Below, piece by piece: positions 2,386 to 21,951 of a stretch of DNA of 29,796 nucleotides. The notes under the pieces are model-generated. The model was not told the origin of the DNA. It ran no database searches and saw only the letters and a list, made by a program, of their open reading frames with translations. Each line of letters begins with the position of its first letter. Within the stretch, counting starts at the first letter, position 1. The position numbers and the translations under genes are program-made. The DNA comes from a virus, in IMG/VR virus record IMGVR_UViG_3300017605_000505, positions 1 to 29,796 of that record; one strand, 5' to 3'.

Positions 2386-2405
2386 CTTATTCCTGCGGGA
2401 ATAAG
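2386..2405. promoter_or_regulatory. TATTCC palindrome, copy 1
   Basis: CTTATTCC-TGCG-GGAATAAG is a perfect 8-bp inverted repeat with a 4-nt centre. It lies 1 nt after the TGA ending the gene at 2067-2384. Two more copies (4065-4083, 7104-7122) occupy the same position relative to a stop codon. It may be a protein-binding operator or stoperator-like site, or the upper part of a terminator or RNA-processing structure. Sequence alone cannot separate these. Confidence 0.65.
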
Positions 2406-2415
2406 CCTCGGCCGT

Positions 2416-2436
2416 GGCTCGGGTTCCAGCCGAGCC
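2416..2436 (+). terminator. Stem-loop after the first gene block
   Basis: GGCTCGG (2416-2422) pairs with CCGAGCC (2430-2436) around a 7-nt loop, 10 nt after palindrome copy 1. It is shorter than the two later hairpins and no U-tract follows, so it may be a weak terminator or pause. The rest of the 2437-2525 gap shows only the leader motif at 2504. Confidence 0.45.
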
Positions 2437-2503
2437 AGCCTCCGACGTTCACGAAATCTGGACGCCGATGGCCGTTCATCCCGCCCGATGGACGGCACGA
2501 CAA

Positions 2504-2520
2504 CAACCCACAACGAAAGG
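2504..2520 (+). promoter_or_regulatory. Leader motif copy 2 with ribosome-binding site
   Basis: CAACCCACAA (2504-2513) is followed by CGAAAGG and, 5 nt later, the ATG of the AAA+ ATPase gene at 2526. It is the same leader motif as at 1311, 4121, 5372 and 6367. Confidence 0.5.
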
Positions 2521-2525
2521 TCATC

Positions 2526-4058
2526 ATGACTACCACTGAACTCGCCAAGCTCTCATTCGAGGACTTGGTACGCAAGGTTGGCGGCACGCCGGACAACGCC
2601 CGTCCGGTCGTCTTCCCTGCGGGCAACAACCAGTTCAAGTCGCCTGGGTCGTACGCCCAGGACCCGTTGTCCTCGAAGCAGGTCTACTGCGACGAGGTCG
2701 ATGCCATGTACGAGTACATCCAGCAGAGCGAGCAACTGCCGTTCGGATTCAACGACGTGGCCGTGTGCATGACACGCGTGTTGCGCCGTTGCGATGGCGG
2801 CGTTGCGCGGTCGGTCAAGTCCCCGTTCAAGTTGGCGCAGGAACGCGTCGTCGAGACCGGCTACGACCGATCGGGCAAGATGCAGCACGAGACCATCCCC
2901 GGTGATTGGATGACGATCCCCGGTCTCGATGGCAAGTGCCGCGCGATTGCCAACCAGGACGGGACTGGCTCTGTCCAGTTCCAGTTCCGTCGCTTCTGTC
3001 AGGACGCGATCAACGGATTCTTCGCCTTCATCCGAGAGGAACTGGCGGAGCGTTCGATCTATCGCGGACAGATCATCACGTCGAACTACGAGTACGTGAA
3101 TGTCGCCACCTTCGACCGTAACCAGGTCGTGTTCAACGCTGAGTTGCAGGAAGCCGTCAAGGTCGCCTGCATCTCACCGATCATCGACTTGGACGCATTG
3201 ATCCAGGCCGGTGAGCGGCCGAAGCGCTCCGTCTTGCTCGCTGGTCCGCCAGGGACAGGCAAGACGCTGCTGTTCGGCGTGGCGCAGTCGCTCTTGTTCG
3301 AGATGGCGATGACCGGCGTGATCGTGCCGCCCGGTGGCTCCGCCCAGGACATGCAGAACGGGCTGCGAGTCGCCCGCAACTACATGCGCAAGGACGGCAT
3401 CGTCGGGCTGTTCATCGAAGACATCGAGAAGATGGCCGACAAGGATCGGGCGCTCGCGCTCGACAACCTCGACGGCTCCATCTCGAAGTCGGATCGCATC
3501 CTGATCATGATGACGACCAACTTCCCCGAGCAGATCGCTTCGGCGTTCCTGCGCCAAGGGCGAGTCGACGACTACATCGAAGTCGGCCTGCCTGACGAGG
3601 AAGCGTTCACCCGCTTGATCCAACTGCGGTTGAAGGAGAAGTTGGACAAGGTCATCGACTGGAAGCGGGCGTTCGAGGCGTACCAGGACTACACACCGGC
3701 ATGGATCGTCGGCGGCATGAGCAAGGTGATCCGTTCCGTGATCGCCCGCACTCACTCCGCCGACAACATCACCGTCACGACGCAAGACCTCGTGACGGGG
3801 GCAATGCTGATGCGACGCCAGTGGGAGTTGCAGGACACGAGTGCCAAGCGCACACCTGCGGTCCCCACGCTCGACCAGGCGTTCCAGTCGGCGGTCCAGG
3901 CCGCGATCGCGGATGGGGTTCAGGTCACCAGCAACCTCACCCGCGACGACTTGGTCGAAGCGGCTGCCACGGCCGTGGACTACAAGTTGGACGGCGCGCC
4001 GATCAACTTGAAGACCGAGATGGGCAAGCCCATCGAAGGTCAACTCGGGACCAACTGA
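2526..4058 (+). CDS. AAA+ family ATPase, 510 aa
   Basis: The gene starts at an ATG 5 nt after GAAAGG. Residues 1-230 form an N-terminal region I cannot assign. The AAA+ core follows: Walker A GPPGTGKT (240-247), a Walker B strand GLFIEDIEK (294-302), sensor 1 MMTTNFP with N332, and a second region of homology FLRQGRVDDYIEVGLPD (341-357) with arginine-finger candidates R343 and R346. The Walker B acidic pair is E298-D299 rather than the usual D-E. The same E-D order occurs in BCS1-like AAA proteins (family knowledge). A helical lid and a C-terminal tail (430-510) complete it. The gene stands alone between two palindrome/hairpin modules, so it is probably its own transcription unit. It probably remodels a protein or DNA-protein complex; the substrate is unknown. 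Confidence 0.93.
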   Translation: MTTTELAKLSFEDLVRKVGGTPDNARPVVFPAGNNQFKSPGSYAQDPLSSKQVYCDEVDAMYEYIQQSEQLPFGFNDVAVCMTRVLRRCDGGVARSVKSPFKLAQERVVETGYDRSGKMQHETIPGDWMTIPGLDGKCRAIANQDGTGSVQFQFRRFCQDAINGFFAFIREELAERSIYRGQIITSNYEYVNVATFDRNQVVFNAELQEAVKVACISPIIDLDALIQAGERPKRSVLLAGPPGTGKTLLFGVAQSLLFEMAMTGVIVPPGGSAQDMQNGLRVARNYMRKDGIVGLFIEDIEKMADKDRALALDNLDGSISKSDRILIMMTTNFPEQIASAFLRQGRVDDYIEVGLPDEEAFTRLIQLRLKEKLDKVIDWKRAFEAYQDYTPAWIVGGMSKVIRSVIARTHSADNITVTTQDLVTGAMLMRRQWELQDTSAKRTPAVPTLDQAFQSAVQAAIADGVQVTSNLTRDDLVEAAATAVDYKLDGAPINLKTEMGKPIEGQLGTN

Positions 4059-4064
4059 GTTCCA

Positions 4065-4083
4065 CTATTCCCCGAGGAATAAG
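4065..4083. promoter_or_regulatory. TATTCC palindrome, copy 2
   Basis: CTATTCC-CCGA-GGAATAAG has 6-bp arms (TATTCC/GGAATA) and lies 6 nt after the stop of the ATPase gene. It differs from copy 3 at a single base of 19. It runs directly into the large UUCG hairpin at 4083-4116. Confidence 0.65.
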
Positions 4084-4116
4084 CAGCGCCCCCTGGCTTC
4101 GGCCGGGGGGCGCTGC
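4083..4116 (+). terminator. Strong UUCG-capped hairpin terminator after the ATPase gene
   Basis: GCAGCGCCCCC (4083-4093) pairs with GGGGGCGCTGC (4106-4116). The stem continues through a T-G wobble and GGC/GCC to a TTCG tetraloop, giving about 15 bp in all. No U-tract follows, but the stability makes termination likely. The design closely matches the hairpin at 7132-7165, including the wobble below the cap. Confidence 0.8.
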
Positions 4117-4120
4117 CTCG

Positions 4121-4135
4121 CAACCCACGAAAGGA
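4121..4135 (+). promoter_or_regulatory. Leader motif copy 3 with ribosome-binding site
   Basis: CAACCCACGA (4121-4130) runs into AAGGA, 6 nt before the ATG at 4141. It follows the terminator by only 4 nt, so transcription of the next gene must read through the hairpin or start very close by. No clear -10/-35 pair is visible. Confidence 0.5.
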
Positions 4136-4140
4136 ATCCA

Positions 4141-4839
4141 ATGAACGAGGAACACATTCGCAGTCTGCATCAGCAGATGCGCGAGTTGAAGGAGCATTGG
4201 TGGCATCACCATGACGAGCCCGATCCGCCGCCGTACCTGGCGGTGGTCTTCCGGGATATCGGCCCGATCGCGATCGACTGTGCCTTCTACGGCACGATAA
4301 CGATCGCCGCTCACAAGCGGTACCCGAACGCGCCGATCCGCGGCATCACCGTCGAGGCGGGGGAAGACCCACCGGGCGCAATCCTGTTGTGGGTCACGAT
4401 GTCGGCGGTCCACGACCGGGTCGAGTTGCCCGGCGAGCACAAGCTGCCACCGAAGGACGTGCCGATCGAACAGATCATCTTCAACGTCGAGGGTTGGGCG
4501 CGTTCGATCGACACGCCGGGTGCCACGTCGTTGGAGGAAGCGATCGAAGCGGTCGGTGGTCGTGAGGCATTGCCGCCACACGGCGACTTGGAGCAGGACT
4601 TCCGCAACAACCCGGCGTCCGATGTGCGCGAGACCATGACGACCTACTACGTGGTCACGGGCCCGCTGGGCTCGGCCGAGTGGCAGCGGGCAACCAGCCT
4701 GTTCCACAAGGACGACGGCGGCATCATCGTCTGGCAGGAGCCCTACATCGACGACAACGAGAAGTCGCCGGAAGCGGCCAACGAGGACACGCTGATCCAA
4801 GTGATGATCCCGTTCGTCACGCGGGAGGCGTTGTCATGA
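4141..4839 (+). CDS. Hypothetical protein, 232 aa
   Basis: I do not recognise this protein. It starts at an ATG with AAGGA 6 nt upstream. The N-terminus is a helix rich in His and Trp (RELKEHWWHHHDEPDPPP). Strand-rich segments follow (YLAVVFRDIGPIAIDCAFYG, GAILLWVTMSAV), then an acidic linker and a second alpha/beta region (TYYVVTGPLGSAEW, GGIIVWQEPYIDD). It opens the third left-arm block and overlaps the next gene by 4 nt (ATGA), so the two are probably co-translated. The HHH run near the N-terminus could bind metal, but there is no supporting motif. Confidence 0.7.
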   Translation: MNEEHIRSLHQQMRELKEHWWHHHDEPDPPPYLAVVFRDIGPIAIDCAFYGTITIAAHKRYPNAPIRGITVEAGEDPPGAILLWVTMSAVHDRVELPGEHKLPPKDVPIEQIIFNVEGWARSIDTPGATSLEEAIEAVGGREALPPHGDLEQDFRNNPASDVRETMTTYYVVTGPLGSAEWQRATSLFHKDDGGIIVWQEPYIDDNEKSPEAANEDTLIQVMIPFVTREALS

Positions 4840-5414
4840 CGATCGAACGTGAGACCTACACCGAAATCGTCCACTCGATGGTCTATGCGATGGCGATCCG
4901 CGAGATGAACCTGGTGCAGATCACAGCGATCCTGTACGCCTGCGCCCAGGAATCGACGACCGAGGAAGCGTTGGACCTGACACGGCAGGTGCGCGAGCGG
5001 CTGACGGATTGGTCCCAGGAGGATCGGGGCCGGATCATCGCGATCGAGATGATCATCGTCAAGTTCAAGTGCCAGAAGCTGCACGGCCCGTGCAAGAAAG
5101 GCGAGCACGCGATGATGCTGACGCGCATCATCGGCACGCACGATTGGCGACCTGAGCAGGTGTCGTCGTCGGTCGACTTCAACGAGGCCGTGCTGGACGC
5201 GATGCACACCATCCGACCGACCGCCGATGGCGAGACCGCCAAGGTGATCCACAACCGTGGCCTCGGCAACACGCTGTCGAGTCTGTTCGCGGAGATGTTC
5301 GGTGAGGAAGCCGAGACCATCGACGACAAGGTCAAGGACTTCGCATCCGAACTCGATGCCATATTCCCAAGCAACCCACAACCAGGAAAGGAGGAAGGCC
5401 ATGAGTCTTCGTGA
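4836..5414 (+). CDS. Hypothetical mostly helical protein, 192 aa
   Basis: I do not recognise this protein. The start ATG overlaps the previous stop (ATGA). It appears helical throughout, with a mid-protein C-x6-C segment (FKCQKLHGPCKKG, residues ~78-90) and a C-terminal helical acidic region (SLFAEMFGEEAETIDDKVKDF). The last ~13 residues (NPQPGKEEGHESS) are encoded by the leader motif and ribosome-binding site of the next gene, so the tail is probably unstructured. It overlaps the next gene by 14 nt. Confidence 0.7.
   Translation: MTIERETYTEIVHSMVYAMAIREMNLVQITAILYACAQESTTEEALDLTRQVRERLTDWSQEDRGRIIAIEMIIVKFKCQKLHGPCKKGEHAMMLTRIIGTHDWRPEQVSSSVDFNEAVLDAMHTIRPTADGETAKVIHNRGLGNTLSSLFAEMFGEEAETIDDKVKDFASELDAIFPSNPQPGKEEGHESS
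5372..5397 (+). promoter_or_regulatory. Leader motif copy 4 with ribosome-binding site
   Basis: CAACCCACAA (5372-5381) is followed by CCAGGAAAGGAGGAAGG and the ATG at 5401. The purine-rich tract AAAGGAGGAAGG is the strongest ribosome-binding site in the left arm. It lies inside the coding sequence of the preceding gene. Confidence 0.5.
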
Positions 5415-5616
5415 CGAGATTCCACCGGACGAGTTGGCGGTCACGACCAAGGCGCTGGATATCCATCGTCAGTCGTTGATCAACAAACTCGAACGTCCGA
5501 ACACGCCCGAGACCGAGAAGAAGCGCACGATGTTGGAGATTGAATCCTGCTCGCGCGCGGCGACTCGGTTCCGAGCCGAACATGACGGATATCTCGCTGA
5601 TCAAGTCGCATCGTGA
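5401..5616 (+). CDS. Hypothetical helical protein, 71 aa
   Basis: I do not recognise this protein. The ATG at 5401 has a strong GGAGGAAGG site and overlaps the preceding gene by 14 nt. It looks like a two-helix protein (PPDELAVTTKALDIHRQSLINKL; PETEKKRTMLEIESCSRAATRF). It ends in a GTGA overlap with the zinc-finger gene at 5613. Confidence 0.65.
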   Translation: MSLRDEIPPDELAVTTKALDIHRQSLINKLERPNTPETEKKRTMLEIESCSRAATRFRAEHDGYLADQVAS

Positions 5617-6053
5617 ATGAGCACGCGACACCAGTGATCAAAGAGAGCGAGCGAATCAGCGACTCGACGTGGGCGCACCACATGACCAACGACACGATCA
5701 TGTTCGGCTGTTCATGGCCGGGGTGCAACTACACGTCGGAGAACCGTGATTCGATCCCGACTCATTACAAGACTCACGTTGGTCAGGCCGCACAACGGCG
5801 CCGCGCACAGCGACGCCCGCGCTCGGCGGAAGTCACCAACGAAGTCATCGAGGCGGCGCTGGCAACGCTGGACATGGCACAGCTACTCGTCGATCGCGTC
5901 GACTCGTTCGACGCCGAGTTCAACAACCTGAAACGGCAACTCGAAGAAGCCAACATTCTCATCGAGGAACTGCGACAGGGCGACGAGGAACGCGACCGCA
6001 AGGCTGAGGCGTATGACCGCATTCAGCAAGCGATTCGTGATGCCACGGCGTAA
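5613..6053 (+). CDS. C2H2 zinc-finger protein with coiled coil, 146 aa
   Basis: The GTG start overlaps the previous TGA (GTGA). Residues 33-55 form a textbook C2H2 finger: C33-x4-C38-x12-H51-x3-H55, with Y40 and I48 near the usual hydrophobic core positions. A very basic stretch (QRRRAQRRPR, 61-70) follows, then a predicted coiled coil (73-140, LKRQLEEANILIEELRQ). Finger plus basic arm plus coiled coil suggests a dimeric DNA-binding protein (inference). C2H2 fingers are much rarer in bacteria than in eukaryotes but are known in some phage proteins. It ends in a 14-nt overlap with the next ORF. Confidence 0.78.
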   Translation: MNEHATPVIKESERISDSTWAHHMTNDTIMFGCSWPGCNYTSENRDSIPTHYKTHVGQAAQRRRAQRRPRSAEVTNEVIEAALATLDMAQLLVDRVDSFDAEFNNLKRQLEEANILIEELRQGDEERDRKAEAYDRIQQAIRDATA

Positions 6054-6054
6054 G
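6038..6054 (+). repeat. 17-bp direct repeat at a stop/start junction, copy 1
   Basis: TGATGCCACGGCGTAAG occurs here and at 6192-6208, 154 bp apart. Each copy holds the final codons and TAA of one gene and the ATG plus first codons (MPRRK) of the next. The repeat suggests duplication of a gene or of the junction. Confidence 0.7.
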
Positions 6055-6207
6055 CGATGGACCATCCGAGCCTGGAACACGCATCATCCGGCCTACCTGA
6101 AACTTGCTATCCGCGTATGGGGCAAACGCCGCTCCATTCGTGGATTCGAGATACGGGTAGGACGCTTCGGTGTCTTTGTTGACAGGAGTTCTGATGCCAC
6201 GGCGTAA
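6040..6207 (+). CDS. Small basic protein, 55 aa
   Basis: I do not recognise this protein. The ATG at 6040 lies within the 17-bp repeat and overlaps the zinc-finger gene by 14 nt. The ORF then overlaps the next gene by 14 nt in the same way. The product is very basic and aromatic (MPRRKRWTIRAWN; LAIRVWGKRRSIRGFEIRVG) with no acidic stretch, which fits a nucleic-acid-binding peptide. No separate ribosome-binding site is visible, so expression would depend on re-initiation. The conserved junction at both ends argues for a real gene, though a degenerate duplicate is possible. Confidence 0.55.
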   Translation: MPRRKRWTIRAWNTHHPAYLKLAIRVWGKRRSIRGFEIRVGRFGVFVDRSSDATA

Positions 6208-6208
6208 G
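6192..6208 (+). repeat. 17-bp direct repeat at a stop/start junction, copy 2
   Basis: An identical copy of TGATGCCACGGCGTAAG. It ends the 55-aa gene (SSDATA stop) and starts the next (MPRRKK), just as copy 1 ends the gene at 5613 (RDATA stop) and starts the 55-aa gene (MPRRKR). Confidence 0.7.
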
Positions 6209-6391
6209 AAGCCACCGCCCGGTTACCCGACGCCACCGTACGTCCGCCCTCGTGGCCCGAAGCACGAATGCGAACACTGCGGTGGCGACACCCGCGCCGT
6301 CAAGGGCCAGACCCTCGACGACGCGGTTGCAATCCACCTGGCTTCATGTCCGGGTGTCCTACGAATCAACCCACGAAAGAAAGGAACCTAA
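6194..6391 (+). CDS. Small C2HC zinc-finger-like protein, 65 aa
   Basis: The start is the ATG at 6194, 5 nt after AGGAG. The in-frame ATG-like codon further upstream lacks such a site. The basic Pro-rich N-terminus (MPRRKKPPPGYPTPP) precedes a putative metal site C26-x2-C29-x18-H48-x3-C52 and a basic tail (NPRKKGT). The layout fits a small nucleic-acid-binding zinc finger. It overlaps the next gene by 1 nt (TAATG) and carries that gene's leader motif in its 3' end. Confidence 0.7.
   Translation: MPRRKKPPPGYPTPPYVRPRGPKHECEHCGGDTRAVKGQTLDDAVAIHLASCPGVLRINPRKKGT
6367..6386 (+). promoter_or_regulatory. Leader motif copy 5 with ribosome-binding site
   Basis: CAACCCACGA (6367-6376) is followed by AAGAAAGGAA and the ATG at 6391. 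It is located within the 3' end of the preceding gene. Confidence 0.5.
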
Positions 6392-6852
6392 TGCCCGTCA
6401 AGCTGACGGAGAAGGAGCGAAAGGAACTGCTCGCACAGCAGTCCCGAGCACGCGAACTCTCCGACACATTCCTCGACTGCCGATCACTCGGTCACGCCTG
6501 GTCGCAATGCGCGCCAGACCGCAAGCCGCAGTTCGGTGAGTTGCAGGTATTCCAATGCACGCGCTGTCTGTCGATCCGCGATGACCTGGTGTCCGCCAAG
6601 TACGGCGAACTCCTGTCGCGCGGATACCGGATGGCGCCCGGCTACATGATCCCCAAGCCCGAGGATGGGACTCGAACGTTCAGCGCCGCTGCGCTGCGCG
6701 CCGAGCGCCGCCGACGCATGGCCGAGCGTTCATTGCTCCCGGTCATCGACTGGCCCGCCCCACTCGGTGAACAGCCTGAGGTCATCCCCGCCAGGCATCG
6801 CAACCGACCACCAGTGACACGTCCATCCACCAAGAACGGAGCCAACAAGTGA
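6391..6852 (+). CDS. Zinc-binding phage protein (C-x4-H...C-x2-C), 153 aa
   Basis: The ATG has AAAGGAA 6-7 nt upstream. After a charged helix, residues 30-59 hold C30-RSLGHAW with H35, then C56-x2-C59 (FQCTRC), followed by R-rich and aromatic segments (LLSRGYRMAPGYMIP). The same C-x4-H-x-W...C-x2-C arrangement with a trailing Arg is a recognisable small protein type encoded by many actinophages (family knowledge); its exact role is not established. The C-terminal 60 residues are basic and low-complexity (RRRRMAER...RNRPPVTRPSTKNGANK). It overlaps the next gene by GTGA. Confidence 0.78.
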   Translation: MPVKLTEKERKELLAQQSRARELSDTFLDCRSLGHAWSQCAPDRKPQFGELQVFQCTRCLSIRDDLVSAKYGELLSRGYRMAPGYMIPKPEDGTRTFSAAALRAERRRRMAERSLLPVIDWPAPLGEQPEVIPARHRNRPPVTRPSTKNGANK

Positions 6853-7100
6853 GTGCCGATGAATCAACCCCACCACGCCTGCGCGTGCCCTCGCAGGAAC
6901 CCACCGACATCCCGGCCGATCCGTTTCAGATGGTCGTCACCGGCTACGTGATCGGCAGCCTGCTGCACGGCGGGCTCGACCTGTCGCTGATCACGGTGGA
7001 GGCGTCGACCAACGACCGGCGATCAGCATTCGTCGTCGAGTCCAAGACCAGCCGCAAGCGGCTGCGCATCTCCGTCATGGAACAGCGTGACGTGACCTAG
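6849..7100 (+). CDS. Hypothetical protein, 83 aa, last rightward gene
   Basis: I do not recognise this protein. The GTG start overlaps the previous TGA. The N-terminus is Pro-rich (TPPRLRVPSQEPTDIPADP), followed by a hydrophobic stretch (MVVTGYVIGSLLHGG), too short and polar for a confident membrane span, and a basic beta region (SAFVVESKTSRKRLRISVM). It ends 3 nt before palindrome copy 3 and closes the rightward gene array. Confidence 0.65.
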   Translation: MSADESTPPRLRVPSQEPTDIPADPFQMVVTGYVIGSLLHGGLDLSLITVEASTNDRRSAFVVESKTSRKRLRISVMEQRDVT

Positions 7101-7103
7101 TCC

Positions 7104-7122
7104 CTATTCCCTGAGGAATAAG
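7104..7122. promoter_or_regulatory. TATTCC palindrome, copy 3
   Basis: CTATTCC-CTGA-GGAATAAG, with TATTCC/GGAATA arms. It sits in the 25-bp gap between the convergent genes ending at 7100 (+) and 7126 (-), so it is 3 nt from one stop codon and 3 nt from the other. Confidence 0.65.
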
Positions 7123-7125
7123 GAT

Positions 7126-7302
7126 TCACTCAGAGCCCCCGTCAGCTTCGGCTGGCGGGGGCTCTTTCGCGTCCCGGAACCGGTAACGGCTGAACGTCTG
7201 CAACACGGCACGCATGATGCGAATCGTGGCGAACGCTCCCAGCACGGCGCCGAGGACGAACGCACCTGCCAGGTGGACGTTCTCCCATTCGACGCCAAGC
7301 AC
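7126..7302 (-). CDS. Single-span membrane protein, 58 aa (lysis cassette)
   Basis: A GTG start lies 1 nt after the endolysin stop (TGATGTG); stop codon TGA at 7128-7126. The product begins VLGVEWENVHLAGAFVLGAV and has one clear transmembrane segment (residues ~9-28), then a basic amphipathic helix (RIMRAVLQTFSRYRFR) and a polar end (PPPAEADGGSE). As the last gene of the leftward operon, directly after the endolysin, it is a candidate second holin, antiholin or other lysis accessory protein (inference from position and topology). Its last codons coincide with the rightward terminator hairpin at 7132-7165. Confidence 0.7.
   Translation of the reverse strand: MLGVEWENVHLAGAFVLGAVLGAFATIRIMRAVLQTFSRYRFRDAKEPPPAEADGGSE
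7132..7165 (+). terminator. Strong UUCG hairpin terminator between convergent arrays
   Basis: A 15-bp stem (AGAGCCCCCG-T-CAGC against GCTG-G-CGGGGGCTCT, one T-G wobble) is capped by TTCG and followed by TTTCGCG. It ends rightward transcription after the gene at 6849-7100. The hairpin lies inside the coding 3' end of the leftward gene at 7126-7302. Confidence 0.85.
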
Positions 7303-11700: not shown

Positions 11701-14700
11701 GGCTGAGTTGCTCGTGCTCCTGGCGCAGTTCCTCGATGTACGCCCGGCGCGCTTCCTCGCCCTCGCCGGTACGGATCATCTCGCGTCGCAGCGCGGGCCA
11801 GCGTGCCTGGGCTGCCTCACGCGCCATGTACTGCGTGCGGAACACGCGGTCGATCGGCTCGGTCTCACCGGGCAGCGTCAGCCGCCAGCCCTCGGGCGTC
11901 TTGTTGACGCGGAAGCCGGTGTACGGCGGGTTGTTGCGGGTGTAGCCGACGATCGGGCGAGGCTTGCCCTCACCGGCTCGGATCGCCTGCTCGCGCCCAC
12001 GCGGGTCGTAGTCACCCGACCAAATGATGTCGCCGGTCTCGGGATCACGAACGTGGAACGTGCGTCCCCACTGCTCGGGCTGCGTGCTCGCCTGGTACTC
12101 ACCTTCGACGAACTTGCCGCCCTCACGCGGCTGCGACCACGTCAGCTTCGTCGGTGGCTTCTCGCCCGCCAGGTCGGGCAGGCTGCCGAGTTGCTGCAAC
12201 TCCCGGCTGAGTTCATCCAGCCGCTTGGACTTGTCGACGTACTCGGTCAGGTCGGGCCGGTTCATCTGCTCGATCGCGTGCGCCGCTGCGTCGCGTGTCG
12301 GTGTCGGTGGCCGCTGCTCCAACTCGTACTGCTGCATCTCAGTACGGGCCTTGTTGAGCCGCGTCTGCGCTGCCTTCATGTCGATGCCGTGGGTGGCGGC
12401 GTAATCCTCGATCCGGGCCTGCTGCGTGTCGTACTGCTTGACCACGTCCTGGGCCTGCAGCCACGGGTCCTCAGCGATCCGGCGCTCGGCATCACGCAGG
12501 CTCATCCCGAACCCGTTGGCACGCGCGCGGGCAGCGTTGGCGTCACGGCGTAGCTGCTTGACCTGCGCCTCCATCTCGGCGCGGGCGGTCTCGATCCGCT
12601 GCGCCTGGGCCTCGGTACGACCGGGCCGATCACCGAAGGTGGCGAGTCGCTTGTCGATCCGATCGGCCTCGGTCTGCAGGCGCTGCGCTTCCGCCTCTGC
12701 TTCGGCGCGCCCTGCCGTCATCCGCTCCCGACGAGCCAGCAACTCCTGTGCCCGCCCGCTGGCCTCGGCGTTACCGACAACCTCACGCGCCTGGCGCGAC
12801 TCGATCGCACCGATCAGGTGGTCACGACCCTGAGACTCACGCGCGATCCGGCGCTTGACGGCACGCGTCGCCTTGTCGCGCATCTCGCTCATCTCGCGCT
12901 CGGCACGATCCAGGTTCTCGTGCATCGTGGCGAAGCGCTGCAACTGCTCGTCGACCTGGGCCTGCGAGTCGGCCTGCAGCGCCTTCTCCAACCCGGCCTG
13001 CAGGTTCTCCCAGCGACCACGCTCGTGTTCGAGTTGGGCGGCAATCTCACCCAGCCGTTCCTGCTGGGCGCGGGCGATGTTCTTCGGCGTCTGCGAGCGG
13101 ATGCCGTGGATCGTGGATTCCTTGGCCCGCATGACCTGCTCGTTGGCCGACGACTCCTTCAACAGTTCGAGGTACTCGGTCTCCAACTTGTCGACGCGCT
13201 CGCGAGCAGCGGTCAACACCTTCTGCGTCCGCTCCACGTTCTTGGCGCCCAGCGCGCGGGCCTTCTCGAATGCCGCCTCGGTGCGCTGGCGGGTGTCCTC
13301 GATCGCTCTGGCGATGTTCTCGCGCTGCGGCCCGGCAATGTCCTGGAACTCGGTCAGCACCTGCTCGTGTGTCGGCGGGACGCGGGGAATCTTCTCGCCG
13401 TTGGGGCCGACACCGGCCGGGACGGCGCCGCCCTCGGTGATGATCTTGTTGCGGGCCTTGGTTGCCTCGGGGTCTTCGACCCACTCCCACTGGTGCGTCG
13501 ATGCCGGGCGCTGCTCGGTCGTCGGGCCACGCACGTAGCGCGGCTCGGTCGTGCCCTCGCGCGGCTGCATCTTGATGTCGCGACCGAACGGGTCCCACGA
13601 CTTGGGCAACTCCTGCTTGCGCTCCAAGCCTTCCAGCCCGAAGCGAGTGGCGTGCTCGAAGCCGACGTTGCGAGCGACATCCTTCTCGGTCGACTTGATG
13701 TAGCGCCGCCAGGCTTCGACCGGGTCGGTCTCGTAGAGATTGCCAGTGAAGCCGTGCTGGCGCAGCAGCCCGCCCAGCTTGTCTTCCAACTCGGCCAACG
13801 AGCCGGTCGTGATTTCGACTTCGTCCTTGCCGATCTTGAACACCTGCGGTGAACCATCGGGGTTGGGGCGGAACAGGCGGCGCTGCAGGAAGCCGCCTTC
13901 CTCCAACAGATCGCGGTCGGTGACACCCAGGTCACGGCGGATGAAGTCGAGCAGCGGGTTCTGCCCCTTGCGCAGCTTGTTGAAGAACCGGAACGCATCG
14001 CGGCTGAGAACGTGGGGCACCACGTAGCGCGACTGCTGACCGTTGGGCAGCGTCCACGGCCGCAACTCAGGCGGATCGAGCCCGAGCGCCTTCATGGTCT
14101 CGATCATCTGTGGCGCCATCGCCGTGGCCGCATTCTCCACGCCGGTTTCCTCAGCGGTCTGCACCATCTGCGCCCGTTCCTCTTTCGAGAAACCCTTCAA
14201 GTCGTCGGCCAGCTGGTGCAGGTAGGCGACAGCCGGGGCACGGAACTCGCCCTTCGCCAGCCGCATCGCCTCGTTGGCGGCATGGGTGCGCAGCGCTACT
14301 TCGCGGCTGACCGCTCCCTCGCCGGTCAGCAGCCGCTCGGTAGCGGGCCCCAGCTTCTGACCGATCACGCCGGTCGGCGTCCTGACCTTGCGCAACTGCT
14401 CGCCCGCCGTGCGCGTCCACAGTTCCTTGCCAGGCGACAGCACCCGCGAGACACCGCGAGCGAGCGGCTCGGTCATTGCCTCGGTGCGAGCGGCAGCACG
14501 CGCTGCCAGTTCCGGCGAGACACGCGAGAGCGGCCCGTAGACCACGTCCTGGATCGGCACACCGTGCAGCCGGATGGCGTGGCTGTCGATGCCCATCGCC
14601 GCCAACTGCTCGGACGTGGCAGCGTTGACGCCACGCTTGCCGATCACGTCGAGCGCTTCCTTCTTGCCGATCTTGGTCAGCGCTTCCAGTTCCTGATTGG

Positions 14701-18635: not shown

Positions 18636-19583
18636 TCAGCCGATTCTGACGATGAAGTTCACGACTTCATAGGGGGCGAGGTTGCCGTTGGCGCCCGACA
18701 CGCCTGCAGCATCGGTCGAAGGGGCAGTCGTTCCGGTGTTGACGGCTGCCGTCATCCCGGCTGAGTTGAAGTTGTTGCCGTCGACGGTGATCGGGTGGGT
18801 GTGGGCGGCGCTGCGACCACCAGTCGTCAGGTTGTGCTGGTGGGCGGGGGCGGCATCGAGCCCGTAGAGGTTCGAGGGCACGCCCGAGTGGCCGGTGCCG
18901 GACTGATCCATGCCGAGCGTGCCGGTGCCACCGAACGCCCAAACGTTGGGGTTGCCCGAGGCGGCGTGGGTGTGGGCGCCCTGCGCATCGCTCGTTCCGC
19001 TGTGGTAGTGGTCGGCGGACTCGGTTCCCGACGAAGCGGTGTGGGCGTGGTTGACGTTGTGCTGGTGATCCCCCATCGCGTGGACGTGAGCGGGCGTCGT
19101 GTGCGAGTGGCTGACGATGATCAGATCACGGGAACCGCCCCTGGCACCGAGCGTGCCGAACAGGGGGTCGCCCTGGAAGCGACCGACGCCAACCCGCCCA
19201 CGTCGGTCAGGCAGGTTGAAGTTGGCACCAGCGCCGCCATAGGCGTAGCCGATCACGGCGAACAGCGCGGCGTAGAGCGGATCGGTCGTCGACTTGCTGG
19301 ACCCGTCGCAGAACGCCCACCCGGCTGGGGCGTTGGGCCCGGCGAACTCCCACACCGTGCCGATCGGCACCACGTTGGAGTCGACGTACGCCTTGGTCGC
19401 AGCGTGCTGGGCAGCGGTCGGCGCGCCTGGCAGCGAGAGCGGCCCGGTCATCGCCACCGAGCCGTCGCGGTTGATCAACTCCTGGCCGACGTGGCCCTCG
19501 ATGACACCGAAGTTGTAGTCAACGTCGACGGCGGTGGCGGGCGTGTTGTTGAGAATGTCGCGCAGTGGCGCCATCGCCGTCAT
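18636..19583 (-). CDS. Tail fibre with phage tail-collar domain and His-rich tip, 315 aa
   Basis: The ATG at 19583 overlaps the nozzle gene's stop as ATGA. Residues 36-70 carry the fibre-type motifs LINRDGSVAMTGPLSLPG and AATKAYVD. Residues ~73-150 match the phage tail-collar domain (IGTVWEFAG...PAGWAFCDGSS...NFNLPDRRGRVGVG). The remainder holds at least eight H-x-H pairs (159/161, 166/168, 173/175, 179/181, 192/194, 204/206, 248/250, 261/263), as in trimeric fibre tips that bind metal ions through HxH. The end NLAPYEVVNFIVRIG is typical of collar-domain proteins. It probably contributes to receptor binding on the virion tail. Confidence 0.88.
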   Translation of the reverse strand: MTAMAPLRDILNNTPATAVDVDYNFGVIEGHVGQELINRDGSVAMTGPLSLPGAPTAAQHAATKAYVDSNVVPIGTVWEFAGPNAPAGWAFCDGSSKSTTDPLYAALFAVIGYAYGGAGANFNLPDRRGRVGVGRFQGDPLFGTLGARGGSRDLIIVSHSHTTPAHVHAMGDHQHNVNHAHTASSGTESADHYHSGTSDAQGAHTHAASGNPNVWAFGGTGTLGMDQSGTGHSGVPSNLYGLDAAPAHQHNLTTGGRSAAHTHPITVDGNNFNSAGMTAAVNTGTTAPSTDAAGVSGANGNLAPYEVVNFIVRIG

Positions 19584-21274: not shown

Positions 21275-21951
21275 GGCGGCGTCAGCACCCAACTGCCGCC
21301 ACTGCGCGGGATGCCCAGGATCGAGCCGGTATAGACCAGCGGGCGCTGATGACGCGGGTCCATGATCGCGGAGCGCGCCGCTTCGGCATCTCGCATCCAG
21401 CGATCCATGTAGACCGACTCCAACTGCTCGTCTTCCTGCTGGGCATAGGCCAGCGCGCAGGCGTAGTGCGTGAAGCAGTAGTGCAGCCGGGCATCGCAGT
21501 CGGGCTCGTTGGCGGCATTGAGCCACGTCAGTGGACGCCGATAGCCGCGCAGCACGTACGTGCGTGGGTTTGTCATGTCCCCGTTGCGCGGGTAGGTCGT
21601 GATCTGACCGCCCCACAGTGTGTACTGCGTCGGCAGCATCGTGCCCACCTGCGGCCCGGCGTACCAGCCCTCCGCGAACTCCGGTGCCACCATCTGCAGC
21701 CGGTAGTTATGGGTCTTGTCGGTGAGCGAGATGATCCCTGGCGGGTTCACGTCACCAGGGATCGTGATCATCGAGGCACCAGGAGCGAGCGTCACATCCC
21801 AGGTCTGCTCGTAGAACGGCCACTGAGTCTCGCCGTTGATCGTGCGCTCGAAGCCCTGCTGCAGATAGGCGTCGATCGTCGGGTCGGGCAGATCGGCCGA
21901 CGTGGTCTGCGTCTGCACCCGCACGACGCTGCGAAGATCGGTGAGGTTCAT
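21271..21951 (-). CDS. Head-to-tail adaptor / tail tubular protein A-like, 226 aa
   Basis: The ATG at 21951 overlaps the previous stop as ATGA. The product starts MNLTDLRSVVRVQTQTTSAD with LPDPTIDAYLQQGFERTING, a helical opening typical of podovirus adaptor (tail tubular A-like) proteins. A beta insertion follows (DVTLAPGASMITIPGDV), then helices (LHYCFTHYACALAYAQQEDE). This ring would sit between portal and nozzle. Gene order (capsid, linker, adaptor, nozzle) supports the call. Confidence 0.8.
   Translation of the reverse strand: MNLTDLRSVVRVQTQTTSADLPDPTIDAYLQQGFERTINGETQWPFYEQTWDVTLAPGASMITIPGDVNPPGIISLTDKTHNYRLQMVAPEFAEGWYAGPQVGTMLPTQYTLWGGQITTYPRNGDMTNPRTYVLRGYRRPLTWLNAANEPDCDARLHYCFTHYACALAYAQQEDEQLESVYMDRWMRDAEAARSAIMDPRHQRPLVYTGSILGIPRSGGSWVLTPP

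Follow-up and report, generated by a model that had tools for sequence, protein, structure and literature searches.

In phage phiC31, dispersed palindromes known as conserved inverted repeats (CIRs) lie in early intergenic regions, near promoters, and are bound by the c repressor. Cluster A mycobacteriophages such as L5 and Bxb1, with the repressor Rep/gp71, carry many copies of a phage-specific word, the stoperators, some of which are promoter operators while most lie elsewhere (PMC6550527, PMC9283540). Word and repressor diverge together between related phages of this cluster (PMC6550527), and stoperators of the L5 type are 13 bp long, asymmetric, oriented with transcription and 20-30 in number (PMC6550527, PMC9283540). 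In Bacillus phage SPbeta, the intergenic SPbeta repeated element (SPBRE) was predicted from sequence long before the phage-encoded master repressor MrpR was found; the element measures 15 bp, lies at promoters and is bound by MrpR, a protein with the tyrosine-recombinase fold (PMC10516654). Here, we describe three copies of a palindrome, TATTCC-N4-GGAATA, in the IMG/VR virus record IMGVR_UViG_3300017605_000505, the whole of which (29,796 bp) is referred to as the window, together with their counterparts in related genomes. Judging from sequence comparison, we consider it probable (roughly 70%) that a phage-encoded regulator, dimeric and sequence-specific, uses these palindromes as its DNA operators and that they mark the boundaries of transcription units, being stoperator-like at gene ends.

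The three sites of the window each follow a stop codon:

2386..2405, no strand assigned: palindromic site 1, CTTATTCC-TGCG-GGAATAAG, 1 nt past the stop of the open reading frame (ORF) at 2067-2384 and upstream of the AAA ATPase gene
4065..4083, no strand assigned: palindromic site 2, CTATTCC-CCGA-GGAATAAG, 6 nt past the ATPase stop codon (ATPase ORF 2526-4058)
7104..7122, no strand assigned: palindromic site 3, CTATTCC-CTGA-GGAATAAG, 3 nt past the last early stop (ORF 6849-7100), at the convergent early/late junction

Exact matches to TATTCC-N4-GGAATA start at 2388, 4066 and 7105, and these three are the only ones in the whole record. Searching both strands for CTATTCCNNNNGGAATAAG with up to 3 mismatches returned the same three places only (0.08 expected), and TATTCCNNNNGGAATA with up to 2 mismatches again matched at 2388, 4066 and 7105 and at no others. 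The original prediction, made from the letters of the window alone, had described the palindromes at these coordinates, and the mismatch-tolerant scans place them there and nowhere else. The further details that it gave also hold: the spacing of 1, 6 and 3 nt is correct for ORFs ending at 2384, 4058 and 7100, copies 2 and 3 differ at one base in 19, and the late half of the window contains zero TATTCC-N4-GGAATA. No match to Rfam was found in the window at the gathering threshold, and when IMG/VR was scanned for exact matches to the window word, 72 came up, none of them encoding the family proteins.

Relatives were collected from IMG/VR as contigs, which are fragments, and their gene boundaries come from ORF scans rather than from a gene caller. 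A protein search with the ATPase identified four of them, 79-88% identical (L004-L007; G001 is the contig of L004, and G002/G003 correspond to L005/L006), and profile scans for TerS and for a ribbon-helix-helix (RHH) protein, together with the Prim-Pol protein, added G007/G008, G009, G010/G011, L022 and G005/G006. An ATPase profile search of the genome contigs returned distant ATPases only. Among named phages, megablast gave no match, and the closest named TerL is that of MW202803.1 (44.5%).

TATTCC-N4-GGAATA is absent from the four relatives found with the ATPase, each of which has a palindrome with its own word at the same places. The words, namely TATTCC (window), CTAACGG, CCACTCA, CATTCC, CYATTCGA, CCTACAT and CAGCCCC, are fixed within a genome and swapped wholesale between genomes. 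G001 contains ten exact copies of CTAACGG-N4-CCGTTAG, and all nine CTAACGG half-sites in its L004 part (9/9) are inside palindromes; L022 has the CTAACGG word as well. CACTCA-N5-TGAGTG occurs five times in G002/G003, and the same CACTCA word is found in G007/G008, whereas the other genomes have CATTCC-N4-GGAATG past the ATPase gene (L007), CYATTCGA-N3 (G009), CCTACAT-N3 (G010/G011) and CAGCCCC-GATC-GGGGCTG (G005/G006).

This replacement takes place at homologous positions, with the symmetry kept. After the ATPase stop, five words are found in five genomes (TATTCC in the window, CTAACGG in G001, CACTCA in G002/G003, CATTCC in L007 and CAGCCCC in G005), and before the ATPase gene there are four words in four genomes, the equivalents of site 1 lying at 21361 in G001, 5507 in G002/L005 and 40054 in G005. 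CACTCA occupies the convergent early/late junction of G002 (10638) and G007 (1908), while the convergent early/late end of L007 has kept its terminator and has no palindrome. The original prediction had named loss of the palindrome in relatives with the same gene order as evidence that would speak against it; what we found is a palindrome that is kept with its sequence changed, except that L007 retains the copy past the ATPase gene without the one at the convergent end.

First-order Markov simulations, 200 for each contig, never reached the observed copy number for G001, G002, G003, G007, G008, G009 and G011. The result was weaker for L022 (2 copies) and for the window by itself (3 copies), for which 2 of 200 simulations gave some family of 6-mer palindromes with at least 3 copies, a window-only statistic that suffers from the word having been picked after the fact. 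The case is strong only once the relatives are added, because their copy numbers of 10, 6, 5, 5 and 5 were reached in 0 of 200 simulations. Since the word is constant in each genome yet replaced between relatives, a trans-acting recognizer is implied, and the replacement suggests a viral DNA-binding regulator that evolves fast.

The relatives also have sites at promoters. One promoter (e.g., TTGCGC-N16-TACGAT in G001) drives the gene for P2, an orphan protein of 250-314 aa, and sites lie on both sides of this gene. The P2 promoter stands between two sites with a spacing of 74-79 bp in G001, G005/G006, G009 and G011, the first site ends 0-4 nt ahead of the -35 box in G001, G008 and G009, and L022 has the downstream site only. 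At the other end of the gene, a site lies past or overlaps the P2 stop and is followed by a terminator-like hairpin in G001, G008, G009, L022 and G006; in G011 the site is 60 nt past the stop. Further sites are located between a terminator and the start of the next gene. The word is present as well in the divergent region between late TerS and the first early gene, encoding the RHH protein, in G001, G007/G008 and G011 (1 mismatch), and a comparable palindrome is found in this region of L018, L019, L020, L035 and L024. That of L018 reads TATTCC-GATC-GGAATA, and that of L019, a contig 89% identical to the window across 7 kb of late genes, reads CCATTCCCCGAGGAATAAG, which is identical to window site 2 at 18 of 19 positions. 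The suggestion that the palindromes are operators or stoperator-like elements is thus supported by their occurrence at the same gene boundaries in relatives and at promoters too, including beside a -35 box, and a DNA operator is favored because copies adjoin the -35 box and lie between divergent promoters.

Other features of the TerS/RHH divergent regions were recorded. A second dyad, TAAC-N3-GTTATA, is conserved in most relatives (e.g., G001 at ~7509, L024, L025, L051 and L059) and is perhaps the -10 box (TATAAC) of the leftward promoter. The RHH promoters of L018-L020 (TTGAC-N17-TA...T) have a -10 box that almost adjoins the RHH ATG, with just a few bases between the two, which suggests a leaderless mRNA. 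In L054-L058, L061 and L062, TerS is separated from the early promoter region by extra genes, one for a small membrane protein and the other a longer ORF, and the palindrome remains with the RHH promoter.

P2 is the most likely candidate for the binder, as its divergence follows that of the word, although with one same-word pair this is suggestive rather than conclusive. The normalised alignment score of P2 is 0.33 (45% identity) for G001/L022, the sole same-word pair tested, compared with 0.03-0.12 for 14 different-word pairs. In the TerS and nuclease comparisons, by contrast, few pairs are more distant than G001/L022, and the similarity of RHH, p156 and Prim-Pol does not follow the word. P2 therefore fits better than the RHH protein, since its gene is enclosed by sites and its similarity is confined to the word-sharing pair. 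The one or two sites at its own promoter, and the site plus terminator past its own stop, suggest that P2 is autoregulated. Small zinc-finger proteins encoded near the palindromes had been put forward as binders, a proposal that is not supported, given that the sites enclose the P2 gene and that P2 divergence follows the word. There are several genes for small Zn-type proteins (that at 119-667 matches Phage_zn_bind_8), but sites do not flank them in the way that they flank the P2 gene.

In the mechanism we propose, P2 or, less likely, the RHH protein would bind the palindromes as a dimer. Sites at the P2 promoter and at the divergent promoter would control initiation, and those between a stop codon and a terminator, as are all three window copies, may form a roadblock or insulator against elongating RNA polymerase ahead of the terminator hairpin.

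Compared with the described systems, the sites resemble cluster A stoperators in being several copies of one phage-specific word, in and outside promoters, here with 3-10 copies per contig; unlike them, they are palindromic, ~16-22 bp long (arms of 6-9 with an N3-N5 centre) and concentrated at stop/terminator boundaries. With regard to the cluster A repressor, P2 has no significant match to a known family in Pfam or PHROG, and no search with gp71 was made. The phiC31 CIRs are likewise inverted repeats that lie between early genes and close to promoters, whereas the word here changes completely between relatives at homologous positions. As for SPBRE, a repeated intergenic element was predicted from sequence, but the palindromes are also found at gene ends and not only in promoter regions as the 15-bp motif is. 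The palindromes work like stoperators, but we do not count them as members of the cluster A, phiC31 CIR or SPBRE systems.

Several observations weigh against the operator network. Copies of the word occur in coding sequence (G008 23225; G005 25873 and 31237; L007 6128), and CACTCACCGGCTGAGTG is found in a late gene adjoining the major capsid gene (G003 23951, G007 15883 and G008 4204), where it may be a true site or a coding coincidence. The divergent regions of L022, G009 and G005 do not contain the word. For P2, there is only one word-sharing genome pair, the predicted model is poor (predicted local distance difference test score, pLDDT, of 48) with no usable fold match, and the window phage's own P2 gene lies outside the record, as does its RHH gene. 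Several sites are transcribed, and their RNA would form hairpins; at G001 19520 and G005 38429 a longer stem has the palindrome at its core, as would fit a terminator built round the site. Finally, no tyrosine or serine integrase was found in 10 records, several of them large fragments, so that a role in lysogeny is no more than possible, and repression in a lysogen is no likelier than an early-to-late shut-off during lytic growth.

The same operator network could instead be served by the RHH protein, Arc/Mnt-like and encoded by the first gene of the early operon beside TerS, which would be autoregulated via the palindrome of the divergent promoter. Archaeal viruses encode the RHH regulators SvtR, AvtR and F55, and viral regulators of this fold can have several sites in archaea (PMC5569661). 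What the relatives have in common with these regulators and with Arc and Mnt of P22 is a small, putatively autoregulated RHH protein encoded at an early promoter that carries a palindrome or a repeat. The RHH gene stands beside TerS in nearly all relatives with contigs long enough, the predicted model matches Arc, AmrZ and CopG, and there are weak sequence matches to Arc/HicB/Mnt. A palindrome adjoins the RHH promoter in L018, L019, L020, L035, L024, G001, G007/G008 and G011, and a K-type beta strand accompanies YATTC words in most of these genomes. Nevertheless, G009 and G005 encode RHH proteins with identical DNA-contact regions (VTVQMNLRVPYFYREQLIAEARKRG) while the words of the two genomes are unrelated, so the contact strand does not follow the word, unlike that of Arc/Mnt-type RHH operators, and RHH similarity (0.43-0.70) does not track word sharing. 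The RHH protein was demoted to runner-up because of these shared contact residues and of the three wordless divergent regions, and we regard it as a rather unlikely binder. A K/R switch in the beta strand was also considered as the determinant of the word and fails, as R-type genomes hold several words.

Each window palindrome is directly followed by a second, longer GC-rich hairpin, which the original prediction had missed. These hairpins and the gene between sites 1 and 2 are:

2415..2437, plus strand: hairpin after site 1, 8-pair stem, weak terminator candidate
2526..4058, plus strand: AAA ATPase gene, between sites 1 and 2, 79-88% identical in L004-L007
4083..4116, plus strand: GC-rich hairpin with CUUCGG loop directly past site 2, terminator-like, 15-bp arms
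7132..7165, no strand assigned: GC-rich hairpin with CUUCGG loop, short T run and 15-bp arms, probable bidirectional terminator for early (plus) and late (minus) genes

The late half of the window is entirely on the minus strand and encodes endolysin, tail fibre, major head protein, scaffold, portal and terminase. The TATTCC arms have no T run and so do not have the form of an intrinsic terminator; the palindrome is not itself the terminator, and the neighboring hairpin is the terminator candidate. The earlier idea of a role in termination was thus only indirectly right: a terminator-like element is indeed nearby, but it is the adjacent hairpin and not the palindrome. Another pair of palindrome and GC-rich hairpin, with a different word, is present at 28-91 of the window (TGGGTC-N5-GACCCA, then CGCGCCCCAGGG...CCCTGGGGCGCG), at the position equivalent to the G001 site at 19520, and is possibly a terminator without an operator.

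The palindromes might also act as RNA hairpins, either as phage-specific antiterminator (N/nut-like) sites or as elements for 3'-end protection or processing ahead of terminators. All window copies and many copies in the relatives lie between a stop and a terminator, where they are transcribed and able to fold, some are extended into long stems, and a fixed word that is replaced between phages fits an RNA-binding protein as well. However, sites beside the -35 box and in divergent promoters fall outside the transcript they would control. The loop letters are not conserved, and both orientations are present, the centres in G001 including CTGG and its reverse complement CCAG. Dyad symmetry carries on into the positions of the would-be loop in 14 of 23 centres (binomial p=0.0004), and between L019 and L020 an arm pair changed from C-G to G-C on both sides with the flanks conserved. 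Moreover, all three window sites have the same palindrome arms, whereas the stems of the hairpins after them vary freely. In light of this, we find an RNA role unlikely, and DNA operators remain our preferred interpretation.

It is improbable that the sites function not in transcription but in replication, partition or genome compaction, in which case P2 would be a binder of the centromere or nucleoid type whose gene neighbors the Prim-Pol gene and iteron-like repeats. Such a role would fit a P2 gene located just past the Prim-Pol gene and short direct repeats, the dispersal of the sites, and the 39 GTTTC-N3-6-GAAAC palindromes, ~1 per kb, of the distant relative MW202803.1; the sites of the present family, on the other hand, cluster at early-half promoters and stop/terminator boundaries with uneven spacing. 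That each palindrome is no more than the leading hairpin of a tandem pair of intrinsic terminators, alike through duplication, has the adjacent hairpins at all three window sites in its favor but is very improbable and was rejected, as copies exist at promoters, no U tract follows the palindrome, the stems are of 6-8 bp only, the word is replaced and does not drift at homologous positions, and L007 kept its terminator without the palindrome.

Three side observations concern these and other genomes. The short direct repeats just past the Prim-Pol gene (G005 ~540-760, G001 ~13,500-13,620 and L061 ~1,550-1,700) differ per genome (GGTTTCCGCCCC; GGTTCCC; CAGACAGGT) and look like origin iterons. MW202803.1 (L074), from Manatee Spring, is complete, circular and 42,055 bp long, and is the closest named relative by the TerL comparison with the window; its 39 palindromes have the form NGTTTC-N3-6-GAAACN, are found in both genome halves and are inside genes in 25 of 39 cases, and a regular-expression search of it for an RHH protein found none. 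An unrelated phage of 49% GC (L111, IMGVR_UViG_3300048538_000149) has two copies of CTATTCCCATGGGAATAAG on the minus strand (3571-3589 and 6952-6970), both between a stop codon and the following ATG.

For this uncultivated, podovirus-like lineage, we tentatively suggest that an orphan, fast-evolving P2 and all of its dispersed sites switch specificity together, and that P2 may represent a new family of phage repressors acting on both initiation and elongation, a possibility that we rate somewhat below even odds. If the operator interpretation is true, the palindromes ahead of terminators would be a second, unrelated case of stoperators after the L5-type phages. The family would provide a named candidate protein and, at homologous positions, some seven specificity variants made by nature, so that the question of how a regulator and its many dispersed sites change specificity jointly could be put to a direct test with a small number of proteins and synthetic DNA.

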